Source of the DNA: an uncultured Clostridia bacterium
GTDB lineage: Bacteria; Bacillota; Clostridia; Christensenellales; Aristaeellaceae
DNA length: 64,000 nt
Assembly: GCA_947166705.1 (NCBI GenBank)
Contig: CAMVFE010000007.1
Span: 1-64,000 of the forward strand
Reading direction: 5' to 3'
The stretch's first letter is position 1; the number at the start of each line of letters is the position of its first letter. Made by a program: the position numbers and the translations under genes. Of this stretch, positions 4,682-35,862 are shown one piece after another. The notes under the pieces are model-generated. The model had not been told where the DNA came from. It ran no database searches and saw only the letters and a list, made by a program, of their open reading frames with translations.

Positions 4682-4716
4682 CCCCTCCCTCGAAGCAGTA
4701 TTTGATCTCGACTTTT

Positions 4717-5655: not shown

Positions 5656-5658
5656 AAA

Positions 5659-7857
5659 TCATTCATCCCCCGACAAGGTAGAATTCTGTACACTAAATAC
5701 AGCCATCAATGTTCTTTTGCTGGGAATTCCATCCTCATTTAGTCCCTGATCTTTTTGAAACACACGAACAGCATCAGCTGTTTGCTCATCGTAAATCATG
5801 GTGATATTTTCTTTCGGTAAATAACCAAGGTGATTCAACCTTACTTGCAAACGTTTTACCGCTTGTCTATCAGTATGATTGACCGCAAATGATTTTGTCA
5901 GCCATTTTCGGAGAATTTTCAATTCCTTGTCTGTTATCACTTGACCAGATGTAGATGAGGATGCATCTATTAATTCTTCAGGACGCATTTCGTCCGGACA
6001 AGGAACAGCTGAGTCGGAGAAAACGGACTCTTGAAGTTGTACAGAAATAACATCCTCAAACGGAACATGATTCGTTTCAGAAAACAATTTAAGCGCATCT
6101 ATACAGTTTCTATCTATATACGGGCGAGCAGAATAGGGAGAGTATCCGAGCGATTTGAGCCTTGCGTTTAAGATGGTAGAGGATTCACTAACATCATTTT
6201 CTTTCAAGGCCAGAAAACCATCATATGGAGCAGCATCCTTCGCAAGAATATTTCTTTGTAGTTCCTCTGAAATACTTGAATCATAATTTATTCCATTTTG
6301 AATACTATATTTTTCTATCGCTTCTAACATGCGGCTGTCACACGTATTATCTGGAGCAACAACCATATATCCAAGTGTTATTAGACGCGACTTAACGTCA
6401 CTAACTCTTGTACCTGCATCTCCTAATGAGAGAGACAAGAATTGGAAACCTTCACTTGCTGTATTGAGCATTGATTGGAAAAAACGATTTGCATTTCCGT
6501 TTTCAACCAGGCTCATTTCACTCTGAGCTAAAGAAACAGCATGCATTGTTTCAACACCATAGAATCCGGTGGGTTCAAAAGGCAGGTAACCAAGCTGGCA
6601 AAGCTGGTTTTGAAGCAAGGTTACCGGTTCACCCAGCGACCCCATTGACAAATAAGAGTATTCAGGAAATTGCTGCTGGTCAGAAGCATCTGCACTTAAT
6701 TCTGCTGCGCGCTCCATGTTTTGTTCAATATCATCTTGAGTTAAGATGGAGTCACCTGGTATCGAGTAGCAGAAAGAAGCATCTGGCTCCTTGAATAGAT
6801 CGTATACCATCAGTCGATAATCAAAAATCGAAATCATCGGTGCTTTTACTGTCTCCATATCAATAAAGGTATATGGAATTAGATCACCATTCTGAATATC
6901 ATATCTATAAACTACACCCTGTTCATTCAACATGAAAGCATAATCAGCATCTGAAGTGAGTTGAGGCAAAATTGTATTATCTAGCAAGTGTAATGTGTTA
7001 TGCTGCTCTTCTGATACAATAAAAGACATTAAGCTAGTTTCTTCGCCTGTTTGACAAATATAGAAGATTTCATTATCCTGATGACTAATGCCGATCAAAG
7101 CATTTCCCGAAATGGGAACCAACTCACCAGCTCCTTGCCAGTGATAAAAAAGTTCCCCGCCCTGCGTTAAAAACAAATCATATTGTTCACAAACTGTAAT
7201 CTGACTACCTTTTGTTGAAATCCCCGGATCTACAAGTTGCTTCGATAGCGGAACATATAGCATTTCGTTTCCATCAGATAGTGTTACCAGCAAACCATCG
7301 CTGGAGATGCGCAGCCCACTGACATCCGATTCAAATGTTGCCGCTATTTCTGTTGTTGAAGTCAGTGGTTCAAATGTACGGAGCTGATTTAAGGCCGCAT
7401 CTTCGACAAAATAAATTACCTCATCATTTGATGACCAGCATGGATCAATTGTGACACGCGCAATTGTGTTCAGCCTGTTTTCCTGTTCACCGATTTGCAG
7501 CTCCTGAATAATACTTTCACGGCCAGGATGTGAATAATCAAGTTCACAGGAAGCAGTATAGAGCACGCTATCATCAGACGCATACAATAATTCTTTTACC
7601 GGCTGCTGGATCAAGGGATGGGTTTCATCATCCAAGTTGTAAAGATAATTATTGGGCCCAACATAGGCAAACATAAGCTCACCATAGCTTCCATAGTTTT
7701 TAGGCCTGATCAGACTGGCGTTGGCAAAGGGTAAAGACAATCCCTCGCCAGCATCCACAGAGCGGTCTGATGCTAGTACAATAAAGAGTGCAAGCGAAAT
7801 TGAAGCAAGCAGGCAACCAAGCGTTGCAATGATTCTTGTCAAAGACCATTTCTTCAT
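5659..7857 (-). CDS. membrane-anchored protein with C-terminal tandem peptidoglycan-binding (PG_binding_1-like) repeats
   Basis: N-terminal TM; at least three to four repeats of the type LQxxLxxLGYLP...D..T..AVxxFQ (e.g. VKRLQVRLNHLGYLPKENITMIYDEQTADAVRVFQKDQGLNEDGIPSKRTL). Confidence 0.75.
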   Translation of the reverse strand: MKKWSLTRIIATLGCLLASISLALFIVLASDRSVDAGEGLSLPFANASLIRPKNYGSYGELMFAYVGPNNYLYNLDDETHPLIQQPVKELLYASDDSVLYTASCELDYSHPGRESIIQELQIGEQENRLNTIARVTIDPCWSSNDEVIYFVEDAALNQLRTFEPLTSTTEIAATFESDVSGLRISSDGLLVTLSDGNEMLYVPLSKQLVDPGISTKGSQITVCEQYDLFLTQGGELFYHWQGAGELVPISGNALIGISHQDNEIFYICQTGEETSLMSFIVSEEQHNTLHLLDNTILPQLTSDADYAFMLNEQGVVYRYDIQNGDLIPYTFIDMETVKAPMISIFDYRLMVYDLFKEPDASFCYSIPGDSILTQDDIEQNMERAAELSADASDQQQFPEYSYLSMGSLGEPVTLLQNQLCQLGYLPFEPTGFYGVETMHAVSLAQSEMSLVENGNANRFFQSMLNTASEGFQFLSLSLGDAGTRVSDVKSRLITLGYMVVAPDNTCDSRMLEAIEKYSIQNGINYDSSISEELQRNILAKDAAPYDGFLALKENDVSESSTILNARLKSLGYSPYSARPYIDRNCIDALKLFSETNHVPFEDVISVQLQESVFSDSAVPCPDEMRPEELIDASSSTSGQVITDKELKILRKWLTKSFAVNHTDRQAVKRLQVRLNHLGYLPKENITMIYDEQTADAVRVFQKDQGLNEDGIPSKRTLMAVFSVQNSTLSGDE

Positions 7858-8918
7858 GACATTTTCCCTCCGCTTCTACGGTTGTAATCTCCTACCAGTA
7901 TTCTGAAACCAGGCAATTGCCCAAGTGCAAGAACAAGAAAGATTCCGAGGATAATGTTTATCAAGGCACCAAAGAATGTGGCGGTCAGGGTAGAACCATT
8001 CATTTCAGAGATAATGCGTTCAGTAAAAAGTTTTGAAACGTATAAAACAGGAACACAATGCCAGAAGTTTTTACTAAGGCGAGAGAAAAGTGGAGCACTT
8101 CTATTTCCGAGTAATCTCTTAAAAAATACAACGATGGCTACAGTTTGCATAGCGGTTAAGGGCGAAGTATAACCGATGTATTCGTTCGCATACCCAGGGT
8201 GAAAGTTTGTTTTTATTGAAGTCAGCGAAATTATTAATGAAGTAGCGAGAATGCCAAGCACATAAATTACGAGAGCTCTTTTCCAATTAAACTCATTTTT
8301 TGCAACCCACGCACCGAAAATGATGTAGAATGCCCATGCTCGGTAATAACCCCAATTTAACTGATCAGCAAACAGTGTAACAGCAGAAAGATATGGAACA
8401 TCTCGAATAGTTGTATCTACCATGCTCATCGCAAAGATCAAAAGCATCGTGTATAATGCGAGCTTTTCGTTGGTGATAATACGATAGAGCAGAGGATATA
8501 GAATAAAGAAGGAAACCAGCATATGACAAAACCCTATATAAGCAGGAGCCTCTAAAGCTTCAGCCATGCATTCACGGAAAGTAAGGAAATCTAGATCCTG
8601 AGGATGATTGTTGTGCATAATAACAACAGATGATGCAAGCCACCAGATTATACAACTAAGAAAGGACGATGGAATAAACCTGCGCCATAATGTAGAGAGC
8701 CTTATTGGATTAGGTGATGTGAGAAAAATGCTGCCCATTATACAGACAAATGTGGGCATGGCCCACTGTGTTAAACCGGAAACACAGTTGCATAAGCTCC
8801 ATGCATTATTTCCAATGGATAATTCTGACCATATCGTGCCGAAAGATATTCCGAAAGAAAGAGCAATCGCCGCAGCTAAAGAAGCCGAGCCTTGCCATGC
8901 TTTTCGTTCTCCTATCAT
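7854..8918 (-). CDS. acyltransferase-3-like integral membrane protein (divergent)
   Basis: About 10 hydrophobic segments; aligns by eye with the 17991 acyltransferase at AWSL..VSGLTQWAMPTFVCIMGSIFL versus GSLVAWMVPVYLMLSGASFL; operon context. Confidence 0.6.
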   Translation of the reverse strand: MIGERKAWQGSASLAAAIALSFGISFGTIWSELSIGNNAWSLCNCVSGLTQWAMPTFVCIMGSIFLTSPNPIRLSTLWRRFIPSSFLSCIIWWLASSVVIMHNNHPQDLDFLTFRECMAEALEAPAYIGFCHMLVSFFILYPLLYRIITNEKLALYTMLLIFAMSMVDTTIRDVPYLSAVTLFADQLNWGYYRAWAFYIIFGAWVAKNEFNWKRALVIYVLGILATSLIISLTSIKTNFHPGYANEYIGYTSPLTAMQTVAIVVFFKRLLGNRSAPLFSRLSKNFWHCVPVLYVSKLFTERIISEMNGSTLTATFFGALINIILGIFLVLALGQLPGFRILVGDYNRRSGGKMS

Positions 8919-8934
8919 TACAATCCCTCACCCC

Positions 8935-11775
8935 TTACCTAATTTTGAACTGTCCGAGGACATATTCATTAGGTGACTTTTCCTCGCTCAAGGCCATCGG
9001 AACAATGGCTTCACTATGCTCGTCAACAATCGATGCAGTTAGAGTATAAAGAACGTCGTCATCCAATTCGTCGCGACTAATGGCTGCATCATCTGATTGT
9101 GTTTCTCCAGGAAGCAATGAACTAAATTGAATGTTTTGAAGTTCGCTGCTCCAAACAATGTTCTCCTCGTCATCCCAAAGGGTAAGTCGAAGAGAATAAT
9201 TGCCGTATGTAGGGGCTATACCTTGATTTATAACTTCCGGCGTAACAAGAATGGATTCTTCTGATGTAGCGTCAACCCGAACGCTGCTGATAGAATAACG
9301 ATATCCAATTGTCGTTAAGATTGCCCTCGATGCAGAAGAATAATCAATTGATGTCTCATTGACAATGATTTTGGGGCCAATAAATGTTTGATGACTTGCA
9401 CGAAGAAGTTCCAACGTCTCAGTTAAATTATCATGAAGATAATAACTGTCACTGTTGGTCGAGGCAAATTCGCCTCCAACCGGCTCCGTCTTCCAAGCGT
9501 CTGAAACATCTGCCTGTTCTGGGAGCCCAGTCTGTTCCCAAATAGTACCATCCCTCATCTGGGCCAGCCAGTATTCTGTTTCATCAGGTTCACCTGTCAT
9601 ATCATTATATATGCCAAACCCATATTTTTTCGTCTCAACAAGAGGATATCTTGTCATAAAATGGGCATGGGGGAAAGCCGTCAAATATGGTTTGATGTAT
9701 TCGTTCCGAATATCGTAATGCGGGAGTGGTGGTACACCTTTAGCGGTATTTACATGATACTCACCCCAATGGCCTAACGATCCTATCTCGACGTAACAGA
9801 AAAAATCATCCTCACCAAATGCATTTCCGAGGGCTTCAATTGCCTTTTTGTGAGCAGCTATAAAAGTTTCATTCTCATAATTCGGAGAATATCCGCTTCC
9901 ATAATCATTTGCATAGTGAACGCCATCATGATTTGTAGAAGTATATAACCAATCTGGGATGTCAATATGGTCTTCATCTCCAGGATTATCGCATATAAAT
10001 CGGAAAACTACCTGACGATTCTGCTCACGGTATGTTTCGAGTCTGTATTCTTCATTAACATAATCTACATCATATTGACCTTCTTCAGGTTCCCAGTCTG
10101 CCCATCGGAGCTCCACGTACACCAACGAAGTTAAGAATTCTTCTCCTTCATCGGAATTTGCCCAAGGAGCATATCCCATACCTGGGGACAAGAGCACGTT
10201 GTCAGACTGTACTGGAGAGAAGTGAAAAACATAAGCTGACTGGCGGGACTGATTTATTAGAATAACACTAGGGACAACAATCATTATCAAGCTCAAAATA
10301 AGAGAACACACAACTGCAAAGTGCTGTTTTTCCGACGAGAAAACCGACAGGAGCACTAAATCTGCTCGCTCTTTTGTTCTCTCTTTTATTATTGGAACGC
10401 TATCACATAGAATATGATATTCGAGCTTTTCAAGGCATCGTACCAACTGAATCGCGGAAATGATCAGAAAGACCAAAGAACTGATGCCCAGGCCAATCCC
10501 AGATGGGTGGATATTAACTTGTCCATCAATATATGTCGCAAATAGAGTAATTACAGAAAAGAGAATTGCTGCAAATACTGCTCTTGTTTCATTTACAAAA
10601 TACATTTGCAAGAGCATTAGCACGCTGCCGATTGAGTAGAATGAGTATCCTACACAAAACATTCTGTAGGTTTGAAGCATTCTTTCTGTCATACCGATAT
10701 TCACAACATTAAGCAATTTGCTTCCTGCTGTCATAAATAGCAGACAGCTGATAATTTGGATAGAAGAGTAGTTTCGGAGTCCCTGCCTTATAGAGCTCAC
10801 CATATGATCACGCGCTGTAAGTACAGAGGTGGTGTTGCCACCGTTTCCCAGTTTTTCAATATAAGTGTGATAATCTTCATAGAAATCCGGCTCAAACAAT
10901 GAGATGAAATATATCATTGCTGGTACAGTACAAAAGTAAGCCACAATAGCTGGAAAATCATATGCTGGGCAACTGGCGAATAGCCCCTTATGAATTACAC
11001 TTTCGGATGAAGTGAACCATGTAATCCAAAAGTGACCCAGGAGTCCTATTTGAGTAGAAAGCCCAACTACAATGAGTGACGGAAAAGCTTTCATCCATGC
11101 TAGAAACTGAAACATTGAACCGGATATATTTGGGAAGCCTCGGTAAAGTGACTTGAAAAGAAAAATATCAACACAAGAATATGCAACAATCAACAGCAAA
11201 ATCATAGTTATCAATGACATCGAGTGAGTTAATCCAACGATCAGAATAAGCAGTCCAGCGATTATTAATGCTGCAAAGAATGCTTTTGTGATCTGAATAT
11301 AGTCTCTCAATAAGCCGATATAGTTCATCATTACCCAGCAAAGGCTTAGAGATTCATATAAAACAAACAATAGGAATGATTCCTGAAGCGGAAGCTCTGA
11401 AAGTGTGAGAAACATGATGAATAGTAATCCACCGCCTACCATCGTGCAAAGAGAGCCACCAATTGCCGATGGCATAACTTCGTCATACTGTTCCATGTAT
11501 ATTTTGTCTGACACAAATCTTGACAGAGGAGTTGAAAAAATCGAGGCAATAATCATGGAGAAGAACATGGTAGTTGTAACATACGTCATGAATAGATCCG
11601 TTGTCTCTCGGGAAATGCCACTTGCAGTACCGGCGATCTGGATCAGAGTAAGCAAAATAATCCCGATAAGCATTCCTCCGAAGCAGGAAAATGCAGCACT
11701 GAACAATCCACCAGTGCGTTTAATAGTATTTCCATTTCGAATTGCCTTTCGTAATTCAAAACCAATTCCAGCCAA
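8935..11775 (-). CDS. pelG: PelG-like exopolysaccharide membrane protein fused to C-terminal DUF4832/DUF4874-like domain
   Basis: MAGIGFELRK N-terminus and multi-TM half as in PelG; C-terminal SPGMGYAPWANS...YVELRWADWEPEEGQYD...FCYVEIGSLGHWGEYH...IIVNETSIDY typical of DUF4832/4874-type proteins. Confidence 0.82.
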   Translation of the reverse strand: MAGIGFELRKAIRNGNTIKRTGGLFSAAFSCFGGMLIGIILLTLIQIAGTASGISRETTDLFMTYVTTTMFFSMIIASIFSTPLSRFVSDKIYMEQYDEVMPSAIGGSLCTMVGGGLLFIMFLTLSELPLQESFLLFVLYESLSLCWVMMNYIGLLRDYIQITKAFFAALIIAGLLILIVGLTHSMSLITMILLLIVAYSCVDIFLFKSLYRGFPNISGSMFQFLAWMKAFPSLIVVGLSTQIGLLGHFWITWFTSSESVIHKGLFASCPAYDFPAIVAYFCTVPAMIYFISLFEPDFYEDYHTYIEKLGNGGNTTSVLTARDHMVSSIRQGLRNYSSIQIISCLLFMTAGSKLLNVVNIGMTERMLQTYRMFCVGYSFYSIGSVLMLLQMYFVNETRAVFAAILFSVITLFATYIDGQVNIHPSGIGLGISSLVFLIISAIQLVRCLEKLEYHILCDSVPIIKERTKERADLVLLSVFSSEKQHFAVVCSLILSLIMIVVPSVILINQSRQSAYVFHFSPVQSDNVLLSPGMGYAPWANSDEGEEFLTSLVYVELRWADWEPEEGQYDVDYVNEEYRLETYREQNRQVVFRFICDNPGDEDHIDIPDWLYTSTNHDGVHYANDYGSGYSPNYENETFIAAHKKAIEALGNAFGEDDFFCYVEIGSLGHWGEYHVNTAKGVPPLPHYDIRNEYIKPYLTAFPHAHFMTRYPLVETKKYGFGIYNDMTGEPDETEYWLAQMRDGTIWEQTGLPEQADVSDAWKTEPVGGEFASTNSDSYYLHDNLTETLELLRASHQTFIGPKIIVNETSIDYSSASRAILTTIGYRYSISSVRVDATSEESILVTPEVINQGIAPTYGNYSLRLTLWDDEENIVWSSELQNIQFSSLLPGETQSDDAAISRDELDDDVLYTLTASIVDEHSEAIVPMALSEEKSPNEYVLGQFKIR

Positions 11776-11776
11776 C

Positions 11777-13177
11777 TCAAATCACCTCCTGATAGACAGT
11801 GTGATAAGACTGGATCATGCTATCAAGCAGATACTTGCTTCGTACCCTTCGTTTTCCATTTTCACCCATTTTCTTTCTCATTTCAGGATTATTACACAGC
11901 TTCGTGATTGCTGAGGCAATTTCCTCGGGAATCATAGGTGTACAGCATATTCCCGCCGGATTGCTTTTATCCATTTCACCCTCGATTAAGCCAGGACAAT
12001 TACCTACTCGGGTAGCAACGCATGCTCGACCTGCAGCCATTGATTCAAGTATGGTTAATGGTTGCCCTTCAGAAATGCTTGTTAGAAGAGTAAAATCCAT
12101 TTTACTCATATATTCGATCGTGTTTACATGGCCATCAATGATAATAGAGCCGCGCATTCCCAATCTATCGATCAATGCCATGCATGAGTTTCTGTAAGAA
12201 GGATCGTCTGTACCACCCATAATATGCAAATAGACATCTTTACGATATTGACGAACAATATAGAAGGCACGTATCATAGTTTTCAGGTCTTTGATGGCCG
12301 CGAATCTGACAAACGCGCCAATATGGATCTCATTTCTGTTATCCGGCAGACTAATATTGTTAAAAGGTTCAACAAGAATGCCATTAGGTATCACTGAACA
12401 TTTCTTTGGATCACAGCCAATAATTACTTGTCGCTCCAATGCGTTCTGAAACAAAGAAGTTACTCGAATTGCATGCGTGTATGCAAACACTGACATCTTA
12501 TAAAAAAGTTTTATCCAAATGGGACGCATGGCTGGGATTGACCAATCGGAGGAAATGAGCTCTTCCTCTCGTTCTCTGGGATAAATCCCATGCTCTGTTA
12601 AAACAAAAGGCCTACCTGTTTCAATTGCTGCGATTGCACCTAAAAGCCCACCATATCCCGTAACAGCTGCATGATATACATCCGCCTGGGGAACTTTTGC
12701 AGTGAGAACCTTGCATAAAGGTATAACCATAGATTGGAGACTATAGAAAGCATCTGCCATTCCGAGACCGGAAAGGTTATCCGACATTTTCTGAGCCATA
12801 GACAAGAAAGGCTCAGAATACACAAGACTAATTGGCACCGCCTCTTTCCTCAATCTACGAGCTATCTCCTCCAATTTGTTTGCGCTTTCCTCCTCGATGA
12901 GAAGCTGATAGATCAGAGAAGAAATCTCTTCGGCTCTGTTTTCATCCATCCGTCTGCAATTTCTTTCATCTATATGATTGCTTAAATAAACCTTATGGTG
13001 CTCAACTACGTTCTTGGGGAGTGTATAAAGAGCATCCTGCGCATCTTCAATTGAGGCGTGTACAGTCCATAACACAAATTCAATTTCCGAACTATGCTCA
13101 ATATATTGGTGTACCCATGTAGATACACCACCTCGAACATACGGGTAGCACCCTTCCAGAATCATGCATACTCTCAT
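11777..13177 (-). CDS. pelF: PelF-like glycosyltransferase (GT4)
   Basis: MRVCMILEGCYPYVRGGVSTWVHQYI, VLTEHGIYPRERE, SISEGQPLTILESMAAGRACVATRVGNCPGLIEG. Start moved to 13177 (MRVCMIL) inside the 484-aa ORF. Confidence 0.9.
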   Translation of the reverse strand: MRVCMILEGCYPYVRGGVSTWVHQYIEHSSEIEFVLWTVHASIEDAQDALYTLPKNVVEHHKVYLSNHIDERNCRRMDENRAEEISSLIYQLLIEEESANKLEEIARRLRKEAVPISLVYSEPFLSMAQKMSDNLSGLGMADAFYSLQSMVIPLCKVLTAKVPQADVYHAAVTGYGGLLGAIAAIETGRPFVLTEHGIYPREREEELISSDWSIPAMRPIWIKLFYKMSVFAYTHAIRVTSLFQNALERQVIIGCDPKKCSVIPNGILVEPFNNISLPDNRNEIHIGAFVRFAAIKDLKTMIRAFYIVRQYRKDVYLHIMGGTDDPSYRNSCMALIDRLGMRGSIIIDGHVNTIEYMSKMDFTLLTSISEGQPLTILESMAAGRACVATRVGNCPGLIEGEMDKSNPAGICCTPMIPEEIASAITKLCNNPEMRKKMGENGKRRVRSKYLLDSMIQSYHTVYQEVI

Positions 13178-15078
13178 TGCTTGTTCCACTCCACTCTTAT
13201 ATCCTGATCCTGTGTTCTGATGATGTAGCATCCATCATCAATCTCAACAAGTTCACCAGAACTGATGAATTCAGGTATTTTTTCGGTGCGCAGCATTAAA
13301 AACGCCTCATCGATTAGCCCCTCCAAATGAATGCTTATACCATTTTCGTCCATTTCTTGTTCAACGAATAAGTTGCAATATCTTTGAACAGCACCAGCAG
13401 CTTCTGTAATAGTCGTGGTGTTGAGGCCGTATTTACGATTCCATTTGACCATGTTTTCGTACGCAGAAAGCATAGCAGAAAAATCGCCGCCATCGCTTCG
13501 TTCTTCATCTAGGATATCATCCGGGTGGATATAATTTGATTCGTAGTAATGGTAATTGAGCTCATTTACTTGTAGCCACCATTCGCTACTCTCCATTTGC
13601 ATATCTGCAGTTAGTCTAGGTACTTGGACAACATCTTCGTCAAGCACAGAGAATTCTTGTACAAGCTGATCTGGCGTCCCAATATAAACACCGGCGTATA
13701 TTCGCAAATCTTCAAATTGGCGCACCATAGCGTTCATGGCTTCTCTACTCAAGACATTACTTGGAGCGACGTAAGACTGAATTTCGATTCCCGGCGTAAG
13801 CGTTTTAGCATAGGTTAATGCAGCTCTGACTGAAGACAGCATGTTTTCAACCGTTACCCAATTTGTGTATCCATCATTCTTTTCATCAAAAACGTATCCC
13901 TCCAATACAAGCGGTTGATGATTATATCCATGTAGGCCAATTTCACCGCCCATTTCTAAAATTTGCTTTGCATAGTATGAGGCCGAGGGCTGATTGTTTG
14001 TATTGGTAAAGGGACCGTCCACATCATCGTCATAGCATTGAATCAAAAATGTTGAGTATTTTATATCGTTTTCCTCGGCTATTTTTTGTAATGAAGGCCA
14101 CCATACATTGGCATAGAAGTCACCAACGGTGTATCCATATTGGCTTAGTACATTCTGATCAAAGCCTGCTGGCGCAGCAGACGGAAAATCATCAATACAA
14201 TAGACAGCTGCATTGATGACAGGATATACCAGTGCAGAGTTCATATGCGCAAAACACGATGCAATCATACCTCTATTTGTTTTTCCATCCATCAAATCGG
14301 CGTTGCAAACAAGGACATGCCCTGACTGTTGATATCTTTCCCATAAAAGAGGCCTATGAAATTCATCGGCAGTAACGATATGAACTTCGCATTCAGGTGT
14401 TAGTTCCGCTGCTACAGCATCACAGAAAATTACGTCATCCGAAAACTCCATGCCTTTGCCACCTGCCAAAAGTGAAGTCAGAAGGATCATGGAATCAACA
14501 TGTATATTCTCCGAAGCTGTCATAGAGCTTATTCCTAGTAAGGGCATCCAATTTTTCTCTTCAGCGGTAGGATCGAACAACTCTTCTGCTTCCAATCCTG
14601 ATGCGAAAATGATGTTTCCACCAGCATTAATCCAAGGTAATAAATCATTGAGATCAATTCCAGAAGAGATAAGGGAAGAGAAACAAACAATAAGGTCTGA
14701 ACACTCATCGACCATATATGTCGTAACAGGTATTGTCTTTATAAAAGTACGTTCCGTTGGAATATAAATACTTTTCTTAGTCAATTCTACGCCAAAGGAA
14801 TTAAGGACAAAGCCAATCTGTTCTGAAGTTTGAACGCTTTCAACATCATTGCTATCATATAGTAGAAGCGCTTTTCTTTTACACGTACTCCGTTTCGACT
14901 CTCGATCCTCCTGCAAAGCCTCCCAAGCGTCCTGGCTTATGAACGTATCCTCAAATCCGCCTTCTTCATGGCTTTGATATCCCATTTGTTGGATAAAAGC
15001 GAGGATGGCTACTAATAGCAGAACAACTACGGGAGTAGTCAAATCTAAAAGTATCCCTCTTATCTGACGCTTATTCAT
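13174..15078 (-). CDS. DUF2194-like / polysaccharide-deacetylase-like protein, PelA-deacetylase analogue
   Basis: N-terminal TM, Rossmann-like region, then YCIDDFPSAAP and GGEIGLHGYNHQPLV (deacetylase-like D and HxxxH motifs); position next to pelF. Confidence 0.7.
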   Translation of the reverse strand: MNKRQIRGILLDLTTPVVVLLLVAILAFIQQMGYQSHEEGGFEDTFISQDAWEALQEDRESKRSTCKRKALLLYDSNDVESVQTSEQIGFVLNSFGVELTKKSIYIPTERTFIKTIPVTTYMVDECSDLIVCFSSLISSGIDLNDLLPWINAGGNIIFASGLEAEELFDPTAEEKNWMPLLGISSMTASENIHVDSMILLTSLLAGGKGMEFSDDVIFCDAVAAELTPECEVHIVTADEFHRPLLWERYQQSGHVLVCNADLMDGKTNRGMIASCFAHMNSALVYPVINAAVYCIDDFPSAAPAGFDQNVLSQYGYTVGDFYANVWWPSLQKIAEENDIKYSTFLIQCYDDDVDGPFTNTNNQPSASYYAKQILEMGGEIGLHGYNHQPLVLEGYVFDEKNDGYTNWVTVENMLSSVRAALTYAKTLTPGIEIQSYVAPSNVLSREAMNAMVRQFEDLRIYAGVYIGTPDQLVQEFSVLDEDVVQVPRLTADMQMESSEWWLQVNELNYHYYESNYIHPDDILDEERSDGGDFSAMLSAYENMVKWNRKYGLNTTTITEAAGAVQRYCNLFVEQEMDENGISIHLEGLIDEAFLMLRTEKIPEFISSGELVEIDDGCYIIRTQDQDIRVEWNKQ

Positions 15079-15742
15079 TTGACATTGCCTCCGCATCAGA
15101 TAGATTTAGTAAACGCTCATGATAAATTGTATCATCCGGCATACAATCTAAATACTTAACGAGAAGAGATTTCTCCAGGTTAACCAATTCCATTAATGAA
15201 GCTTTGTCTGGCAATTGTGATATAATATAAGAATGCACTGCGTCAATATAGGAAACTAAGAACTGTGAATTATTGGGCATGCAGTCGCTGTTGCTTTTTG
15301 CTACCGATATGGCATCTTCATGCTTTTGATTCATGCGCATCAAGGCAGATGCAGCGATATGACTCACCTCACTACTCTGTGAGTAAAGAGCTTTCTTCAA
15401 AATCATTGAAAGTTGTTGTTCATCAGCGTTATCTATAGCATCCATTAAAAAGTTGCGAGCTTGATTTTCTTCTCCTGTAACAATTTCTTCGTAGTCATCA
15501 GGGATTATCCACTCACCTTTCATGATAGGAGTCTGGTGATGAGAATCCGGAACTTTAATATACTTAGATTTTGCTGGAACTGCACCGATTTCAGCTGCCA
15601 GAAGACACAATTCGCCGACAAATGGAATACATAAGGCAAGGGTTAAATAGGTATAATTCAATCTAGATTTATTTGTCTGTATGAATAGTGCAAATAAAGT
15701 AATAAGCAGAATGTGAATACCAAGCAAAAGAATTACGACCAT
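15071..15742 (-). CDS. PelE-like small membrane protein with cytoplasmic helical-repeat region
   Basis: Two N-terminal TM segments followed by an alpha-helical region; position between SDR-PelD-like and deacetylase genes. Assignment rests mainly on synteny. Confidence 0.5.
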   Translation of the reverse strand: MVVILLLGIHILLITLFALFIQTNKSRLNYTYLTLALCIPFVGELCLLAAEIGAVPAKSKYIKVPDSHHQTPIMKGEWIIPDDYEEIVTGEENQARNFLMDAIDNADEQQLSMILKKALYSQSSEVSHIAASALMRMNQKHEDAISVAKSNSDCMPNNSQFLVSYIDAVHSYIISQLPDKASLMELVNLEKSLLVKYLDCMPDDTIYHERLLNLSDAEAMSNE

Positions 15743-15776
15743 TTGCCTTTTCCCCTCCCGTATAGCATACTTCCTT

Positions 15777-16931
15777 TTACTCCTTTACCTTGTTCTCACG
15801 ATACATTCCGAACAAAACAGCAGATGCTAGGTAAGTAGCAACGGGAATCCAGTTGTCGATGTGAAAGAATAGTATATGCCATTTTGTCCCACCTAAAACA
15901 CTTTGGATGATGCTCGCCATCGAACACAACACTGCCGCAGCAAGACCATAGCGGCGGCCCCAAATCAAGCATGAACCAATAACAAATAGAAGACGAAAAT
16001 CCACAAACTGTAGCTCGGAACCAACTTTCATAAACCCAGTGTACAGGCATACTAAAGAAAAGATGACCAAGAAAAGGCAAATATGAATTAAAGCTTTAGA
16101 TCCGCCTGCAAACAGTGAAGATTTTGAATCGGCAATCTCTTGTTCAATATTATTGATAATATGAGGGAACTCTTCATAGAAATTATGGGAAGGCATCCAT
16201 TGATCTATGGAATCATAGTCTTCTGGAGTTTGAAAGGCAGACATTGTAGGCATAATAGAGGCGGAGGTATGATTTTGCTGATAAACGATTTTTGACTGAG
16301 AAAAAACACTTTTGAATAATGTCTCTAATGATTTTAAGGATGCCTCCTGATGGGAAGTTAAGAAGATATTTGAATAATTCTCGGATTTGCCTATATATGT
16401 CTTAATTGCAGCTCCAATGTCAGAGATATGAATAGCTTCAAAAGAGTCGATCTCATTTCCAGGCAAAACTATGGTATTTGTCCTCTTATAGTTGTTGTAG
16501 ATTCCCGTCAGCTCGGGCGGAAGGAAATCATCTCCATATATTGGAGCCGTTTTCCAAAATGAAATACGATCAGTAAGTTCTCTGCAGCCATTGCATATGT
16601 ATCGGTCTGTGTCCGCAGATGACTGTTGAGAAAGATTGATATTGGACTCTGAGATACATATTAGACGCGTCGAAGAGACCACATTCATACTCTGAAGCAC
16701 TATCGGCAAATAATTACAGGGCAATTCTTCAGATGAAAGATAAATGATGTAATCACACTCGGGCGCTAAATAATTTCTTAAGGCATTTTCATCAGTAATG
16801 ATATATTCAGAAAACGGAAACTCAAAGTCGACCTGAAGAGTATGAAGGACTGTGATGTCAAAGTAATTTGAAAGGTATTCTCCAAGCGCAATGCCTTTGC
16901 TATCTGTAGCGGTAACTAACAACAGCTTCAT
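15777..16931 (-). CDS. degenerate SDR/epimerase-like domain fused to PelD-like 4-TM segment (no GAF/GGDEF)
   Basis: N-terminal MKLLLVTATDSKGIALGEYL... SDR-like; C-terminal VDFRLLFVIGSCLIWGRRYGLAAAVLCSMASIIQSVL resembles the PelD/DUF4118-type membrane region; ORF stops right after the last TM. Confidence 0.65.
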   Translation of the reverse strand: MKLLLVTATDSKGIALGEYLSNYFDITVLHTLQVDFEFPFSEYIITDENALRNYLAPECDYIIYLSSEELPCNYLPIVLQSMNVVSSTRLICISESNINLSQQSSADTDRYICNGCRELTDRISFWKTAPIYGDDFLPPELTGIYNNYKRTNTIVLPGNEIDSFEAIHISDIGAAIKTYIGKSENYSNIFLTSHQEASLKSLETLFKSVFSQSKIVYQQNHTSASIMPTMSAFQTPEDYDSIDQWMPSHNFYEEFPHIINNIEQEIADSKSSLFAGGSKALIHICLFLVIFSLVCLYTGFMKVGSELQFVDFRLLFVIGSCLIWGRRYGLAAAVLCSMASIIQSVLGGTKWHILFFHIDNWIPVATYLASAVLFGMYRENKVKE

Positions 16932-16950
16932 TGTTTCTCGTCCTCCATTA

Positions 16951-17991
16951 TTAGGTGATAAACTTGCCAACGAGTGGAATCTTTCTTAGTGCCCAGGTGA
17001 TCAAAAAACTTAAAGGTGTTACGAAACAGAAGGATAAAGGAATCATCCAGCAAGCATTGTAAGTAATTGGCGAAAATCCAAAACGATCAAGCAGAGCGAT
17101 CAGCATAACGTGTACAAGATAAACACCAAATGTCAACGACGAGTAAAATCTCAATGCATTCTGTGTTTGAATAGAGAACTCTTTTTCCCTACATAATTCT
17201 TTTATTAAAACAAACAGTGCAATTCCCTGTATGCCTGTCAAAAGATTAGAATCTGACTGCATATCTTCATTGTGAGCACCATCACGTATTGTCAGTTGCC
17301 AAGTGCCCATAAATACTGCGACAGTTGCTAATATGGCAAGGGAATAAAGCAAATATCTTTGCTTTTTGTTTAGATCCATTTTGTGAAAGAGCCATCCTGC
17401 AAAGAAAAAGCACACGTGCGATGAGATAAATCCGACATTATTCATGCCTGTAATCAGTTCGGCATCTGGCATCCATCCCAAATCTTGTAGCATTGGAAAA
17501 GTAACGCTCAGGACTAAAGAAGCAAAAAAAACATATGCTGTTCCCTTTATAGTTTTTGATGCCAACCGAAAGACGGGAAGCAGCATATAGATGCCCATGA
17601 TCATTGGTAGAAACCATAAATGAAAATGCCCTGTGAATAGCATTTCGACGATGGAAGTATGAGTATCTTGACCGGATAAATGATTGTACAATGCATATAA
17701 TATAGACCATGCTGCAAAAGCAACAAACATGTGCCATATGTTTCTTGCCCAGATAGTTTTTATCGTTACTTTCTTATTAGGGTCAAGGAAACTTGCTCCG
17801 CTTAACATGAGGTAAACGGGAACCATCCATGCGACCAGCGAGCCATAGGCATTAAAAACCCACCATTTTGCACCGAGTGGTTCTACAAAATCAAATGATG
17901 CGGTGGAGATATGCCTTAACACAAGACATAATACGGCAGAGATGCGAAGGATATCCCAATACCAGATTCTTTTCCTAGCTGCTGTACTCAT
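16951..17991 (-). CDS. acyltransferase family 3 membrane protein
   Basis: WDILRISAVLCLVLRHIS (catalytic R..H region), about 10 TM, WFLPMIMGIYMLLPVFR. Confidence 0.88.
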   Translation of the reverse strand: MSTAARKRIWYWDILRISAVLCLVLRHISTASFDFVEPLGAKWWVFNAYGSLVAWMVPVYLMLSGASFLDPNKKVTIKTIWARNIWHMFVAFAAWSILYALYNHLSGQDTHTSIVEMLFTGHFHLWFLPMIMGIYMLLPVFRLASKTIKGTAYVFFASLVLSVTFPMLQDLGWMPDAELITGMNNVGFISSHVCFFFAGWLFHKMDLNKKQRYLLYSLAILATVAVFMGTWQLTIRDGAHNEDMQSDSNLLTGIQGIALFVLIKELCREKEFSIQTQNALRFYSSLTFGVYLVHVMLIALLDRFGFSPITYNACWMIPLSFCFVTPLSFLITWALRKIPLVGKFIT

Positions 17992-17994
17992 TTC

Positions 17995-19317
17995 TCATTG
18001 TCCTGTGCTTTCTTGAGAATATCGCAAGTCTTCAACGCGTTTGGCCTTCCCCGTGAAGCGTTGAAGTGTTCCGGGGTTAACAAGTTTTGTTTTCATCTTC
18101 ACAATAATGATTTCACTAAGACGTTTTTGCAGTTGCTCATTGATTGCATGGATTTTATTTTCCGCGTAGAGTTCTAAAGGGTCTACTAATTCGACAAATA
18201 ATGTTGCAGTATCCTGATACCCATCTCTTTCCAGTTTGAGATGATAGTGAGGGCTTAGTCCATCTATCCCATCTATAGCGCATTCTATCTGAGATGGGAA
18301 TACATTTACCCCTTTAAATACGATCATATCATCTGTACGAGCATATGGCGCTTTCATACGAACAGAAGTCCGTCCGCAAGCACAGGTTTCGTAATTCAAA
18401 GAAGTAATATCCCTCGTTCTATATCTCAACAATGGCATTGCTTCGCGGTACAAAGAAGTGAAAACGAGTTCTCCTTCTTCGCCTTCAGGTAATGTCTTTC
18501 CAGACGTAGGATTAATAATCTCTGGGTAAAACAAATCTTCGGATATATGCATTCCACAATGGGCATCGCATTCTCCTGCGACTCCTGGTCCAAAGCATTC
18601 GGTTAATCCGTAGTTATCAAATGTCGGCACACCTAGTTTCTTTTCTATGGTATTCCGCATCCCATTCGTGCATCTTTCAGCTCCTAATAATACTTTTGTG
18701 ATTTTATACTCGTCGCCAGGAATTTTTGTTTGGCTAATTAAATCCGCAAGGTATGTTGCGTACGAAGGAGTAGCCATAAGAGCAGTTACGCCTACATCGT
18801 GCAGCATAACGAGCTGTTTTTGAGTATTTCCAGTTGAAGCTGGTACAATTGTACAACCTATAAGCTCTGCGCCTTGATGAAATCCAAGGGCCCCGGTAAA
18901 CAAACCATATCCAACCGATATTTGCAGAACATCTTCTGCTTCAATACTGTTTAGACACAAAACACGAGCAGATGCCTCTGCCCATGTTTTCATATCCCTT
19001 TTCGTATAATAACCTAGAGTTGGTTTCCCGGTAGTTCCAGAAGAAGCGTGGATTCTAGCAATTTTATCCCTTGGTACAGCCAGAAACCCGTTCGGATAAT
19101 TATTTTTCAAATCATCTTTGGTAGTAAAAGGTATTCTTTCAATATCCTTGAGGTCTTTTATATCACGTCCTGAAAGAATGCCCGCTCGGGAAAGCTGCTC
19201 TGTATAAAATGGAATTTTCTCAATGCAATAATCAACCATCTGGCGTAAACGATTGAGTTGCAGCCTTCTCATCTGGTCTCGTGGCATCATTTCTATCTGA
19301 CGATTAAAAATGCTCAT
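17995..19317 (-). CDS. phenylacetate-CoA ligase (PaaK)-family adenylate-forming enzyme
   Basis: IHASSGTTGKPTLGYYTKRD, DNYGLTECFGPGVAGEC, YARTDDMIVFKGVNVFPSQIE. Confidence 0.93.
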   Translation of the reverse strand: MSIFNRQIEMMPRDQMRRLQLNRLRQMVDYCIEKIPFYTEQLSRAGILSGRDIKDLKDIERIPFTTKDDLKNNYPNGFLAVPRDKIARIHASSGTTGKPTLGYYTKRDMKTWAEASARVLCLNSIEAEDVLQISVGYGLFTGALGFHQGAELIGCTIVPASTGNTQKQLVMLHDVGVTALMATPSYATYLADLISQTKIPGDEYKITKVLLGAERCTNGMRNTIEKKLGVPTFDNYGLTECFGPGVAGECDAHCGMHISEDLFYPEIINPTSGKTLPEGEEGELVFTSLYREAMPLLRYRTRDITSLNYETCACGRTSVRMKAPYARTDDMIVFKGVNVFPSQIECAIDGIDGLSPHYHLKLERDGYQDTATLFVELVDPLELYAENKIHAINEQLQKRLSEIIIVKMKTKLVNPGTLQRFTGKAKRVEDLRYSQESTGQ

Positions 19318-19348
19318 GCTAACACAGCCTTTCGGGGTAAAATAATAA

Positions 19349-19690
19349 TCAGATGTACTCTCTAACTAATCCCCTACTTTTATTAAACATGTATATCGTT
19401 GCCTGAATATGTTCCATTTCGGGTTCAGAAAGATTTTCAGTTCCATTAAAAACACGTTGATATTGTTCCAAATCTTCATTTCGCAAAAAGCCAGCTGCAA
19501 CATAAAGATCAATAATGGGGCAGGCAAAAACATCGGATATTTTACGCAACTCATCAAACGTGCACTGCTCAGTTCCTGACAGAATGCGTTCCAGCCTACA
19601 CTCCGGTATTGATAGAGCTTCACTTAGCTGATGATTATCAAGCCCGTTTACATCTGCTTTATCCCTTAACAGTTCATTTAATGATCGCAT
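19349..19690 (-). CDS. XRE-type HTH regulator (small)
   Basis: MRSLNELLRDKADVNGLDNHQLSEALSIPECRLERILSGTEQCTFDELRKISDVFACPIIDLY. Start moved to 19690, where an RBS-like ggagaaa precedes the ATG. Confidence 0.7.
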   Translation of the reverse strand: MRSLNELLRDKADVNGLDNHQLSEALSIPECRLERILSGTEQCTFDELRKISDVFACPIIDLYVAAGFLRNEDLEQYQRVFNGTENLSEPEMEHIQATIYMFNKSRGLVREYI

Positions 19691-19766
19691 TGCTACTTTC
19701 TCCTTTTCTGCGTTAGTAGTCATCAATAACCCGACGAAATCGGTAAACAACCTGAACAATGCCTGT

Positions 19767-20741
19767 TTATTTGATGATTTTGATGATGCTGTAGCTATTA
19801 TTCTTTAGAAGCGTTTGGACACGTTCAATGTTCAGCGATCCTACTGGCTCTTTTTTCATTGCACTTTGAATAGAAAGAAGCACTAGATAGTCATACCAGT
19901 AATCGTCACTTTTTGAATTTAAATCGTCTTCATCCAGTGAATTTACAGCGCCAAGAAGAGAATATTCTTCTCCGCCCCAAGTAAAATACGCATAACTCGT
20001 AGTATTACCGCCGAATCCATTCTGAGCCCCATAATGCATCACACAAGAAGGCTCTGTTTCAACATACACCGGATTATCATCAGTGCTTGCTTCAGTATCT
20101 TTTACTGTATCAGGATAGAAAGTAATTTCATATATTGACAGAGAATCAGGGTTCTTTAACACTTTTTTGATGGCTTTAATACAGGAGAAAGCGCGAGATT
20201 CATATGATAATTCTTCACGAAGCTTGATAACGTCCTCGGTCTGTTCGATACTATCGAGCATAGCATCAGCTTCTTCGTACTTCCCTTGAATCATATATGC
20301 TTCAGCTTGCTTTGATGCTAATTCTGCTTTCAGTTCCGGAGAAACACTTCCTTCAGGGACCGTGCTAATCTTTCTTTCTGCGCCAGAATAATCCCCAGAC
20401 TTTATACACTCCTCAATTTCAGCGACTGTAATCTGAACAAGCAGATCGTTCTTTTTTTCCGAATTGCCAAGCTGAGACAGAATAACTTCAGCCTCACTAA
20501 ACTTTCCTCTAGCGATTAACGTTTCAGCTTGAGAAAGTTTTTGCTGTGGTTGGATAACAAATAAATAGCACGCAGCAGTACATGCAGCTAAAAGAACAGC
20601 GATAAGAATAATGAGCCCTGTTTTTGACTTCTTTTTTTGTGCTTGTGCAGGTTGCCCGTTGATTGAGTAACCACAGTGTGGACACTGCTGAACCGTATTG
20701 CTGACTTCGTGTCCGCATTCAGGACAATTGATGAGTGCCAT
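19767..20741 (-). CDS. zinc-ribbon, single-TM, TPR-like repeat protein
   Basis: MALINCPECGHEVSNTVQQCPHCGYSING, TM, then helical repeats (LIARGKFSEAEVILSQLGN...). Start moved to 20741 (strong RBS agaggggga). Confidence 0.8.
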   Translation of the reverse strand: MALINCPECGHEVSNTVQQCPHCGYSINGQPAQAQKKKSKTGLIILIAVLLAACTAACYLFVIQPQQKLSQAETLIARGKFSEAEVILSQLGNSEKKNDLLVQITVAEIEECIKSGDYSGAERKISTVPEGSVSPELKAELASKQAEAYMIQGKYEEADAMLDSIEQTEDVIKLREELSYESRAFSCIKAIKKVLKNPDSLSIYEITFYPDTVKDTEASTDDNPVYVETEPSCVMHYGAQNGFGGNTTSYAYFTWGGEEYSLLGAVNSLDEDDLNSKSDDYWYDYLVLLSIQSAMKKEPVGSLNIERVQTLLKNNSYSIIKIIK

Positions 20742-20784
20742 AGTGTATCCCCCTCTTTGAGCATTACTTTGCTTGGGTTGATTA

Positions 20785-20830
20785 TCAAAAGGTGTACCTT
20801 TTGAAACCATGTCCTCCGTAGGGTCCTACG
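20785..20830. promoter_or_regulatory. paired palindromes upstream of the minus-strand operon
   Basis: tcaaaaggt-gt-acct tttga (20785-20804, 9-bp arms) and cgtagg-gt-cctacg (20817-20830, 6-bp arms), just upstream of the start at 20741. Confidence 0.5.
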
Positions 20831-20940
20831 TCCCATAAGAATATGTAAAACCAGTGTTGCCTGCATGCATCTCTGTTTATAATTACATCCTTCTTTTTCG
20901 AGTTGCTCGGTTTTTCTCCAAAGACTCCTGCGATTAGTCT

Positions 20941-23406
20941 TCAGAGTGTCTTTTTTGATGGATATTTATCGGTGAAATACTTGTTGCCGTCCATGAGTTC
21001 ATAAAGATCGATGTAAGTATCAATTCTGATTTTGGCATTGTCAACAAGCTTTTTTTTGTTGGAGTCTTTTACTGTTAAATTAAACCTGAAGTTATCAATC
21101 ACGTCAGACTGATACTCGTCAATAAGAACACTTGAAGGGATCAGCCATTTGAAGAAAATGTTTGTATAATACTTTGCTCCTGCTGGTATCGTAACGCTAG
21201 AACTGTTTATGACTTTCATCACATACCCGTTGACTTTTATATTTCCAAGATCAAAATTCAAAGCCTGATCAGACTTATTAATAATCAATATTGCAGGATG
21301 GAAGTACATGTCTGAATCATGAGTATCTTTCAGTCCGATCCAATAAAGTGAGATGTAACTATCATCGTACAACACCTGCAGTTTGCCTGGATCCAAAGCT
21401 TCGCCGGTAAATCCATTGGGATATTTCTTTGCAAATTCCGAATCACCTTTCATAATGTCACAAACAGATAATTCAGTATTAATAATGAATGATCTGTCTT
21501 TAAAAAACGTTTTTTGATCACTTTTTAGAGTAAACACCAATTCAATCTTTGTTATTTTGTCAAAACCATAGCCATCCAAAATATCATCACTTGAAACAAG
21601 CCATGTAAAGAGTGTAGACATAAGCACTCTTGATTCTTCGTCAATAATGATTTCTGAAGCGTTTTTTATCGGGACGCAGCAATCATTAAAGAGAACCTGA
21701 TTTATGTCTAACTTAACGGTATCAGAACTGTCGTTGGAGATGTCAATTCTGAAATTGAAATCCATTCCGGATGATTGTGTATCACTCAGGCCTCCGAATT
21801 TGATTGCTATATTGTGCTCCTGATATAATGTGATTGGCTTATCATCAGGATACCATTTAAAAGAATCCAATGCAGAATCTGCCTCTGGGGCAGGGGTTGC
21901 CGTCGGAGCCGAATGTCTTATTTCAAATACTTTTTCTTCTGTTGCTAACCCACGATTTTCCTCATCATAATAGAAAAGCTCATTGCTGCTGGCAGAGTAA
22001 TAATCCTTTGGATTCACTGTAACATTGTAGTCTTTTCCTTTTCGCTCCATCTGAAGCGTTAATGTGCGATCCTCCTTGAACAGTTCATTACGAAATACAT
22101 CTTCAAGATACGGCTCATCCATATAGGTTATGCTATCTATACCCCAGAGCAAATCCCCTGATTCGATTTTGTAAAGTTTGGCCCAGCTTTCATTAACTTC
22201 GGTTATCCATAATCCCGGATGATGGAAACCATATGCTTTTGCGTAGTTCGTATTAAGATAGTATCCTTCTATGCCTCTGAAAAAATTTATTGTGTTGAGT
22301 TCAGAAATAATGGAAGAAACACTATTGTCGTATTTGGGAGTGCGATAATTATTATAAGCAGATGAAGCGTTGATATATCCCTTTGTTTTCGAAGAGAACC
22401 ACGCCCACTGGCTTTCAGGAATGCTGACAGGATCAGCATCGGTAAAATCCGTCACCGTTGCCGGCTGATAACCAATTACAGCAACCTCAATGCGGGAGAA
22501 TTTTTGCGATCGTAGCGTTTCGTTCAAATACAATGTAACAATGCCTTTTACGGAGTTACCGTTTTTCAAAGCTCCTGTAGGATAGCCGGTATCAAATACC
22601 TGCGCCTTATATAAAAAATCATGCCACTTCGACGGACTTTTATCGGAAGGCATAAGTAATCTGCCAGTATCATCATAGAGGCATACAGAGAAATAAATAT
22701 GTTTTAATCCGTTGCCAGTCTGATTTGTTACATTCACCGAAATATATCTCCGACTCTGTTTTACATCATTGATTATAATCTTTCTGGCATTCGGAATGGC
22801 GTTTGATCCGACTGTAATATCAAAAGTTTGCGTTGCTTTCATGTCATTTTTATCTTTGACAGTAATACGGGTTTTCCCTGGTTTCAACGCACTGACTTTC
22901 AAAGTCAAATCTGTCCCTTTTAGCAATGGCGTTACAACAATAATATCTTTAACGGATGACATGATTGTAACATCGCTGTAATTCTTCCCAAAAAAGGACA
23001 AATGAATTTCCAGATCTTTTAGTGAATTAATACTATATGCTTTTTGAGTCCCCCCTGTCAGACTGGGAACATAGACAGTAAATTTGGTTTTGGCCTTTCC
23101 TCCGTCTTTAGATGATATCTCAATTGTCGCATGACCGCCGCCAACTGCTTTGATGCTATAGCCATCTACTCTTACAACAGAACTGTCACTGGACCTTAAT
23201 GTATATTCCCGATTAGTGGCGTCAGATGGAGAAATTGTTACTTCAGGCATAAATGATTGTCCAACATTTATCGTAACATTATTTTGAGATACTTTGATAC
23301 CTTTAACGAATTTCTGATTATCCGCACCATAAGCAACCGCCTGGATAAGCACCACCATGATCAGAATGCCTATTGTCAAGAGATGCCGTCTTATCTTGTT
23401 CATCAT
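20941..23406 (-). CDS. secreted multidomain protein: BIG2-like Ig domain, PDZ-like domain, C-terminal beta-rich domains
   Basis: Signal peptide; VKGIKVSQNNVTINVGQSFMPEVTISPSDATNREYTLRSSDSSVVRVDGYSIKAVGGGHATIEI (BIG2-like); GLWITEVNESWAKLYKIESGDLLWGIDSITYMD (PDZ-like). Confidence 0.7.
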   Translation of the reverse strand: MMNKIRRHLLTIGILIMVVLIQAVAYGADNQKFVKGIKVSQNNVTINVGQSFMPEVTISPSDATNREYTLRSSDSSVVRVDGYSIKAVGGGHATIEISSKDGGKAKTKFTVYVPSLTGGTQKAYSINSLKDLEIHLSFFGKNYSDVTIMSSVKDIIVVTPLLKGTDLTLKVSALKPGKTRITVKDKNDMKATQTFDITVGSNAIPNARKIIINDVKQSRRYISVNVTNQTGNGLKHIYFSVCLYDDTGRLLMPSDKSPSKWHDFLYKAQVFDTGYPTGALKNGNSVKGIVTLYLNETLRSQKFSRIEVAVIGYQPATVTDFTDADPVSIPESQWAWFSSKTKGYINASSAYNNYRTPKYDNSVSSIISELNTINFFRGIEGYYLNTNYAKAYGFHHPGLWITEVNESWAKLYKIESGDLLWGIDSITYMDEPYLEDVFRNELFKEDRTLTLQMERKGKDYNVTVNPKDYYSASSNELFYYDEENRGLATEEKVFEIRHSAPTATPAPEADSALDSFKWYPDDKPITLYQEHNIAIKFGGLSDTQSSGMDFNFRIDISNDSSDTVKLDINQVLFNDCCVPIKNASEIIIDEESRVLMSTLFTWLVSSDDILDGYGFDKITKIELVFTLKSDQKTFFKDRSFIINTELSVCDIMKGDSEFAKKYPNGFTGEALDPGKLQVLYDDSYISLYWIGLKDTHDSDMYFHPAILIINKSDQALNFDLGNIKVNGYVMKVINSSSVTIPAGAKYYTNIFFKWLIPSSVLIDEYQSDVIDNFRFNLTVKDSNKKKLVDNAKIRIDTYIDLYELMDGNKYFTDKYPSKKTL

Positions 23407-23538
23407 CTTTTTTCTCTTCCTTCTAAAACTTTGAGGTACTGGTTTTTGTAAGGTTTATATTCACGGAAAAACAATATGCTTTGATCTCATCTCCCTTCAT
23501 TCTGGTGTCTGAGCAAGTAAGTGTATTAAACCTCTCTT

Positions 23539-24054
23539 TCATGTTTGATTTGTCGCGTTCTGCTGCTCTGTTATTTCATTGCTTGAGGAATTATCTGGTT
23601 CGTTATCAGAAGAATCCGGTTTTTCCGGAATGATTTCGTTTTTCAAGGGCTGAATTACATTTTCCGTCTGAGTTTGTATACCATTGTTAATCGATTTTTC
23701 TATCCCGGCCTGCAAAGCATGAATGTTTTCATTTGAAGCGGAAAGTTTTTTCTCCAGGGCAGACAGAGCTTTTCGAATCATTTCGGTCTGGTCTGGTTCC
23801 AGTAAAGAAAGAGAAACGATCCCTAATAATGCGGCCGTGGCAAAGTAAACAGCTTTAGCGGTCAGCGCTCCGGAAATCTCGCCGCCGCGCAGGGAAGCCT
23901 CGATTATAAAGTTATAGGCGTCGCCGCCGACGTATTCCGTCATCTTCCCGGTGCCGTAGGATTTGATGTATTTATCCGGTGCGGCGGTTGTAAAGCCAAG
24001 GATCATAAACACGACGGCGAGAACCAGACCTGAAATACCTGCTGCTTTTTTCAT
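23539..24054 (-). CDS. membrane protein of unknown function with charged/Asn-rich C-terminus
   Basis: MKKAAGISGLVLAVVFMILGF, second TM, coiled-coil-like tail. Start moved to 24054. Confidence 0.65.
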   Translation of the reverse strand: MKKAAGISGLVLAVVFMILGFTTAAPDKYIKSYGTGKMTEYVGGDAYNFIIEASLRGGEISGALTAKAVYFATAALLGIVSLSLLEPDQTEMIRKALSALEKKLSASNENIHALQAGIEKSINNGIQTQTENVIQPLKNEIIPEKPDSSDNEPDNSSSNEITEQQNATNQT

Positions 24055-32818: not shown

Positions 32819-32913
32819 CCGGCGCGGGCCGCCGGAAGGGGCTGCGTACGCGGAGAAGCGGAGAAGCGACGGACGCGGGGCCGCGCAAAATACGACATGT
32901 CAGGAGAGAACGG

Positions 32914-35811: not shown

Positions 35812-35862
35812 GGAAAGCGGTTTTTGCGCAGGAAAAACCGGCATGGGAAGGTGTGTAGCAGG

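Follow-up and report, generated by a model that had tools for sequence, protein, structure and literature searches.

A PelD variant without the c-di-GMP receptor in a Gram-positive pel operon of an uncultured Clostridia bacterium

PelD normally turns the Pel machine on by sensing c-di-GMP. The locus described here raises the question of how a pel operon might be run when its pelD gene stops at the end of the membrane domain. It lies in a stretch of 64,000 nucleotides, referred to as the window, from an uncultured Clostridia bacterium. The pel genes of the window are as follows.

15777..16931, minus strand: pelD variant; degenerate SDR/epimerase-fold domain (aa 1 to ~270) and four-helix PelD membrane domain (aa 277-383), without coiled coil, GAF, or GGDEF
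15071..15742, minus strand: pelE; 223 aa, 2 TM helices and helical repeats, without the last ~80 residues of its relatives
13174..15096, minus strand: extracellular deacetylase of the pelA-DA type; DUF2194 at E=4.5e-108, with the IDDFP, HGYNH, and PSN motifs retained
11777..13231, minus strand: pelF glycosyltransferase; NF038011 PelF at 278 bits against a cut-off of 100, E-x7-E motif at 388
8935..11775, minus strand: pelG exporter (aa 1-455), an extra TM helix (489-507), and an SIR_1591-type glycoside hydrolase with DUF4832, all in one frame

The pelD variant runs from an ATG at 16931 to a stop at 15777 and encodes 384 amino acids, beginning with a Rossmann-type domain and finishing in a hydrophobic region. 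The protein has no significant match in Pfam or NCBIfam, and its assignment to PelD is thus based on home-made profiles and structure. Single-sequence BLAST proved too insensitive, finding 0 relatives among the other 395 genomes of the order, so we used profiles instead, built from pel operons of the same family and of further families in its class and phylum. One profile, constructed from 13 PelD proteins with the window protein left out, detects the latter at E=8.5e-27; the best of 2000 shuffled controls reached E ~1. The match ends at profile position 416 of 713, just past TM4. The AlphaFold model (mean pLDDT 78, with most of the membrane part above 90) places helices at residues 277-301, 312-324, 326-346, and 358-383, which correspond to the four membrane helices of PelD with essentially no tail. 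The gene directly precedes pelE, pelA-DA, pelF, and pelG in the canonical order, which gives strong positional support for its identity. The spacer between its stop and the pelE start is 34 bp, and pelE is preceded by a GGGAGGGG ribosome-binding site. The initial annotation of this DNA had described an SDR-like domain, a PelD-like four-TM segment, and then a stop, with 34 bp to the next gene and no receptor encoded there, and it had suggested a PelD profile search. The end of the profile match at TM4, the model, and the start of pelE with its ribosome-binding site confirm this description, and the search with our own PelD profile was positive. The window protein is a PelD from which the receptor has been cleanly lost.

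The nature of the lost part is indicated by the relatives of the protein, 18 of 21 of which continue for 291-308 further residues past the point where it stops. When the tail of one relative (L038) was modeled, its top five PDB fold matches were all P. aeruginosa PelD (4etz twice, 4dn0 with c-di-GMP, 4eu0, and 4etx); a sequence search of the PDB with a profile of the missing part (A1) returned nothing significant, whereas this fold search succeeded. The RxxD residues (R234 and D237) are invariant in nine complete relative tails. Since the L038 tail models as the P. aeruginosa receptor, the ~300 absent residues correspond to the c-di-GMP receptor, a coiled coil followed by GAF and a degenerate GGDEF domain with the RxxD site. 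The initial annotation had proposed checking for full-length SDR-PelD-GAF-GGDEF homologs, and these exist, for example, in L038, L041, and L075. A search of 308 genomes of the family produced twelve full SDR-TM matches, and only the window frame ends at TM4 without continuation. A frame near 400 aa with such a match occurs only in the window and in the genome of L034. The PelD frames of L034 and L082, which account for two of the remaining three relatives, are split, and we rejected them as further truncations: the remaining domain continues directly afterward in another frame. We found PelD of the window type in no other searched genome of the genus.

The third remaining relative, L079, has GAF only. 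Its PelD (8977-10995, plus strand) carries an epimerase domain that looks intact together with GAF, but lacks GGDEF, with pelE directly after it, and would represent a loss of GGDEF outside streptococci alongside a seemingly active SDR. Two other relatives (L074, 9603-12461, minus strand; L077, 7260-10049, plus strand) encode PelD proteins that begin with an HD domain of the HD_5 (HD-GYP-like) type, in the order HD-SDR-TM-GAF-GGDEF. These are likely c-di-GMP phosphodiesterases fused to a c-di-GMP receptor.

The missing coiled coil-GAF-GGDEF part has no match in the other open reading frames of the window. Profile A1 also has no match in the organism's own genome assembly (71% complete) and scores between E 1e-50 and 1e-128 in five control genomes. 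PF16963 (PelD_GGDEF) gave no match either, but its control was empty too, and A1, with its working controls, replaced it. The receptor loss that the initial annotation had read from the window is thereby supported, with no receptor remnant in the window or the 71%-complete genome; a separate GAF/GGDEF PelD elsewhere in that genome, which would have contradicted it, was looked for and not found.

Aside from the reductions in PelD and PelE and the PelG fusion, the locus looks like an intact Gram-positive pelDEADAFG operon, and its other catalytic parts look intact at the level of sequence motifs. Homologs of pelF and pelG are present, the order is D-E-A(DA)-F-G with a PelA deacetylase that has no hydrolase domain, and none of the pel genes contains an internal stop. 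PelG scores 314 bits against PF16933, and the WADWEPEEG and GSLGHWGE motifs of its hydrolase half are intact. None of the other complete PelG frames that we examined carries this fusion; in Oribacterium (L031) and in L041, the hydrolase/DUF4832 protein is encoded by a separate gene behind CotH, VTC, and DUF4956 genes. Searching genome contigs with PelG returned only hydrolase relatives of its C-terminal half, while viral contigs and phages gave no matches and plasmids only distant PelG or DUF4832 matches. The initial annotation had suggested that regulation moved to the PelE-like partner. We found no support for this and rejected PelE as a new sensor: no ligand domain is present in it, and ~80 residues are missing from its own C-terminus. 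This truncation, the PelG-hydrolase fusion, and the foreign composition of the surrounding block were all beyond that annotation. In a tree of PelF and PelG, the window groups with a clade of degenerate-SDR systems, so the loss of the receptor is most simply read as derived. The window branch is long (1.45), which could mean relaxed constraint.

The pel genes belong to a longer run of genes inside a block of unusual composition, with the following features.

3293..23700, no strand: AT-rich block; GC3 0.32-0.39 for its genes from 3.3 to 23.4 kb, compared with 0.77-0.92 for genes right of 24.4 kb
19349..19759, minus strand: Cro/C1-type HTH protein, encoded close to where the tightly packed run begins; candidate transcriptional regulator
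17995..19317, minus strand: PaaK/LuxE-like acyl-CoA ligase; a homolog (41% identity) lies just upstream of pelD in L041 too
16951..17991, minus strand: acyltransferase family 3 protein, immediately upstream of pelD with a 19-bp gap
7854..8918, minus strand: second acyltransferase 3, 16 bp downstream of pelG
4717..7857, minus strand: peptidoglycan-binding repeat protein (5659-7857) and lipoprotein-like alpha/beta hydrolase (4717-5655), at the end of the gene run
124..2887, minus strand: two large serine recombinases (phrog_95 integrase) whose genes overlap; located at the contig end, next to the AT-rich block

The run starts near the HTH gene and includes, with the pel genes, the two acyltransferases, the acyl-CoA ligase, and the hydrolase. 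The acyltransferase-3 genes flank the pel genes, with the alpha/beta hydrolase nearby, and it is possible that they O-acylate the Pel polymer. The window is syntenic with genomes of the same genus from ~25.6 kb onward, and the AT-rich block is likely an integrated foreign element with pel as cargo. No left border is seen, and its linkage to the host is given by this one contig only. The CotH, VTC, and DUF4956 genes that adjoin pel in relatives are absent from the block. The literature has put CotH forward as another possible regulator, and CotH-family genes are present elsewhere in the organism's own genome.

We consider it about an even chance that this pelDEADAFG operon functions with PelD reduced to a structural core, a noncatalytic SDR-fold domain on four membrane helices, in a complex that is active without c-di-GMP and controlled mainly at transcription. 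The membrane helices and the SDR domain would serve as a scaffold that still holds PelE, PelF, and PelG together, and the resulting PelDEFG complex would be active whenever it is expressed. Control would come mainly through transcription of the foreign gene run, for which its location makes the HTH gene at 19349-19759 a tentative candidate, and the exporter-tethered hydrolase of PelG would provide polymer release as a built-in function. In P. aeruginosa, PelD, PelE, and PelG recruit PelF, and c-di-GMP leaves the assembly of PelDEFG unaffected, acting only on its activation (PMC8461298). The title claim of the initial annotation, possible c-di-GMP-independent Pel assembly, is supported with respect to receptor loss but puts the emphasis wrongly on assembly, which is already c-di-GMP independent in P. 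aeruginosa. Pel of Streptococcus intermedius still needs pelD, even though that pelD has no GGDEF (PMC12345266). In S. intermedius AP2, however, a stop in TM3 of PelD, with loss of GAF and of the last part of the membrane domain, abolishes aggregation (PMC12345266); GAF or the last TM helix may thus be needed in this species, which counts against the proposed mechanism. The truncated PelD is a single sequence from a 71%-complete assembly. Its receptor and the C-terminal repeats of PelE have been lost in the same operon, and this one example suggests that the two parts may contact each other in ordinary Pel machines.

The SDR domain could instead be the present sensor, and a shift of regulation to another ligand, the other possibility raised in the initial annotation, could for example run through it. 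Its best solved-structure matches, taken from the model, are NDP-sugar epimerases, among them the UDP-glucose 4-epimerase 3ehe (E=4e-10) and UDP-GlcNAc 4-epimerases. An alignment indicates that it is no longer an active epimerase: it has VTATDSKGIA in place of the GGYGFIG of intact relatives, and YxxxK is also absent. The initial annotation had likewise seen no clear GxxGxxG or YxxxK, and the alignment bears this out; both motifs are intact in L079-L082 and L087. UDP-GalNAc is the Pel precursor, and a pseudoenzyme of this fold would bind a nucleotide sugar such as UDP-GalNAc, or a dinucleotide, and gate PelF in place of the GGDEF domain. We regard this as unlikely. The epimerase-like fold, the retention of the domain despite its lost cofactor and YxxxK motifs, and its position as the sole soluble cytoplasmic domain remaining in PelD are in keeping with such a role, but degenerate SDR domains also occur in relatives that retain GAF/GGDEF, and the domain therefore did not originate as a replacement. 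A bolder picture, which we hold to be rather unlikely, reduces PelD to a minimum: four membrane helices with a pseudo-epimerase domain would by themselves activate or gate Pel synthesis in a c-di-GMP-making cell, possibly by reading UDP-GalNAc, and the PelE repeats that disappeared together with the receptor would, in ordinary Pel machines, be what the receptor docks onto.

It is quite improbable that the operon is decaying after transfer and that the truncated PelD is a dead remnant. Decay would account for the long PelF and PelG branch, for the shortening of PelE as well, and for the disappearance from the block of the CotH, VTC, and DUF4956 genes of related pel loci. Yet the genes across 16 kb are all open and tightly packed, catalytic motifs are retained, a good pelE ribosome-binding site lies directly past the deletion, and the PelG fusion is in frame and intact.

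The reduced but working PelD that we favor would operate in a host apparently capable of c-di-GMP synthesis, unlike streptococci: its own genome contains nine GGDEF matches, at least six of them with an intact GGDEF motif. Three adjacent c-di-GMP genes (GGDEF, GGDEF-EAL, and Cache-HAMP-GGDEF), with extracellular solute-binding or Cache sensor domains, are located at 31076-37512 of the window. Another host protein might therefore couple c-di-GMP to the Pel complex in trans, a possibility encouraged by these proteins and by the proximity of the three genes, at 31-37.5 kb, to the block. We nonetheless judge it decidedly improbable, as the 71%-complete genome contains neither a match to the PelD receptor profile nor a PilZ domain, and no c-di-GMP domain was found inside the AT-rich block. 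An assembly artifact, in which the receptor part went missing or the contig is a chimera containing the AT-rich block, is very improbable: the assembly is a draft of 73 contigs, the block reaches the contig end, and no other searched genome of the genus has this PelD, but stop, spacer, ribosome-binding site, and start follow one another cleanly at the deletion site, the operon also carries two independent changes, the loss of the PelE end and the PelG fusion, and serine recombinases explain the jump in composition.

A receptor-free Pel system has precedents. c-di-GMP-independent Pel with a degenerate-SDR PelD has already been proposed for streptococci, where class IV PelD is defined as SDR-TM-GAF (PMC7112168, PMC12345266). 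Like class IV PelD of S. intermedius, the window protein has a degenerate SDR followed by the PelD membrane domain, without GGDEF, in a pelDEADAFG operon (PMC7112168, PMC12345266). Class IV PelD retains GAF, however, whereas the window protein has neither coiled coil nor GAF and is thus not a plain class IV member. Compared with class IV loci, the window also has a shortened PelE and a PelG fused to a hydrolase. The clostridial SDR-TM-GAF-GGDEF proteins (L038, L041, L075, and others) share its first ~400 residues by profile and its operon order D-E-A-F-G, and differ by a tail of ~300 more residues, which models as the P. aeruginosa receptor with RxxD. PelD of S. thermophilus JIM8232, a pel-dependent biofilm former, is likewise naturally shortened and without GGDEF (TM-GAF; PMC7112168), but it has lost the SDR end and kept GAF, the reverse of the window protein. 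The hydrolase half of PelG resembles SIR_1591 of the S. intermedius pel locus, which combines a TM helix, a TIM-barrel-type hydrolase, and DUF4832 (PMC12345266); SIR_1591 is a separate gene for a TM-tethered glycoside hydrolase, and its counterpart in the window is the C-terminal half of PelG. The window protein fits best into the known Gram-positive pel operon as a PelD variant reduced still further.

A receptor-less PelD paired with a PelE without its C-terminal repeats bears on how c-di-GMP-bound PelD activates the Pel synthase: it suggests which parts interact and what the minimal synthase is. The PelG-hydrolase fusion would couple export of the polymer directly to its cutting. The locus extends receptor loss beyond streptococci, which typically lack genes for diguanylate cyclases, and into a host whose GGDEF proteins are intact.
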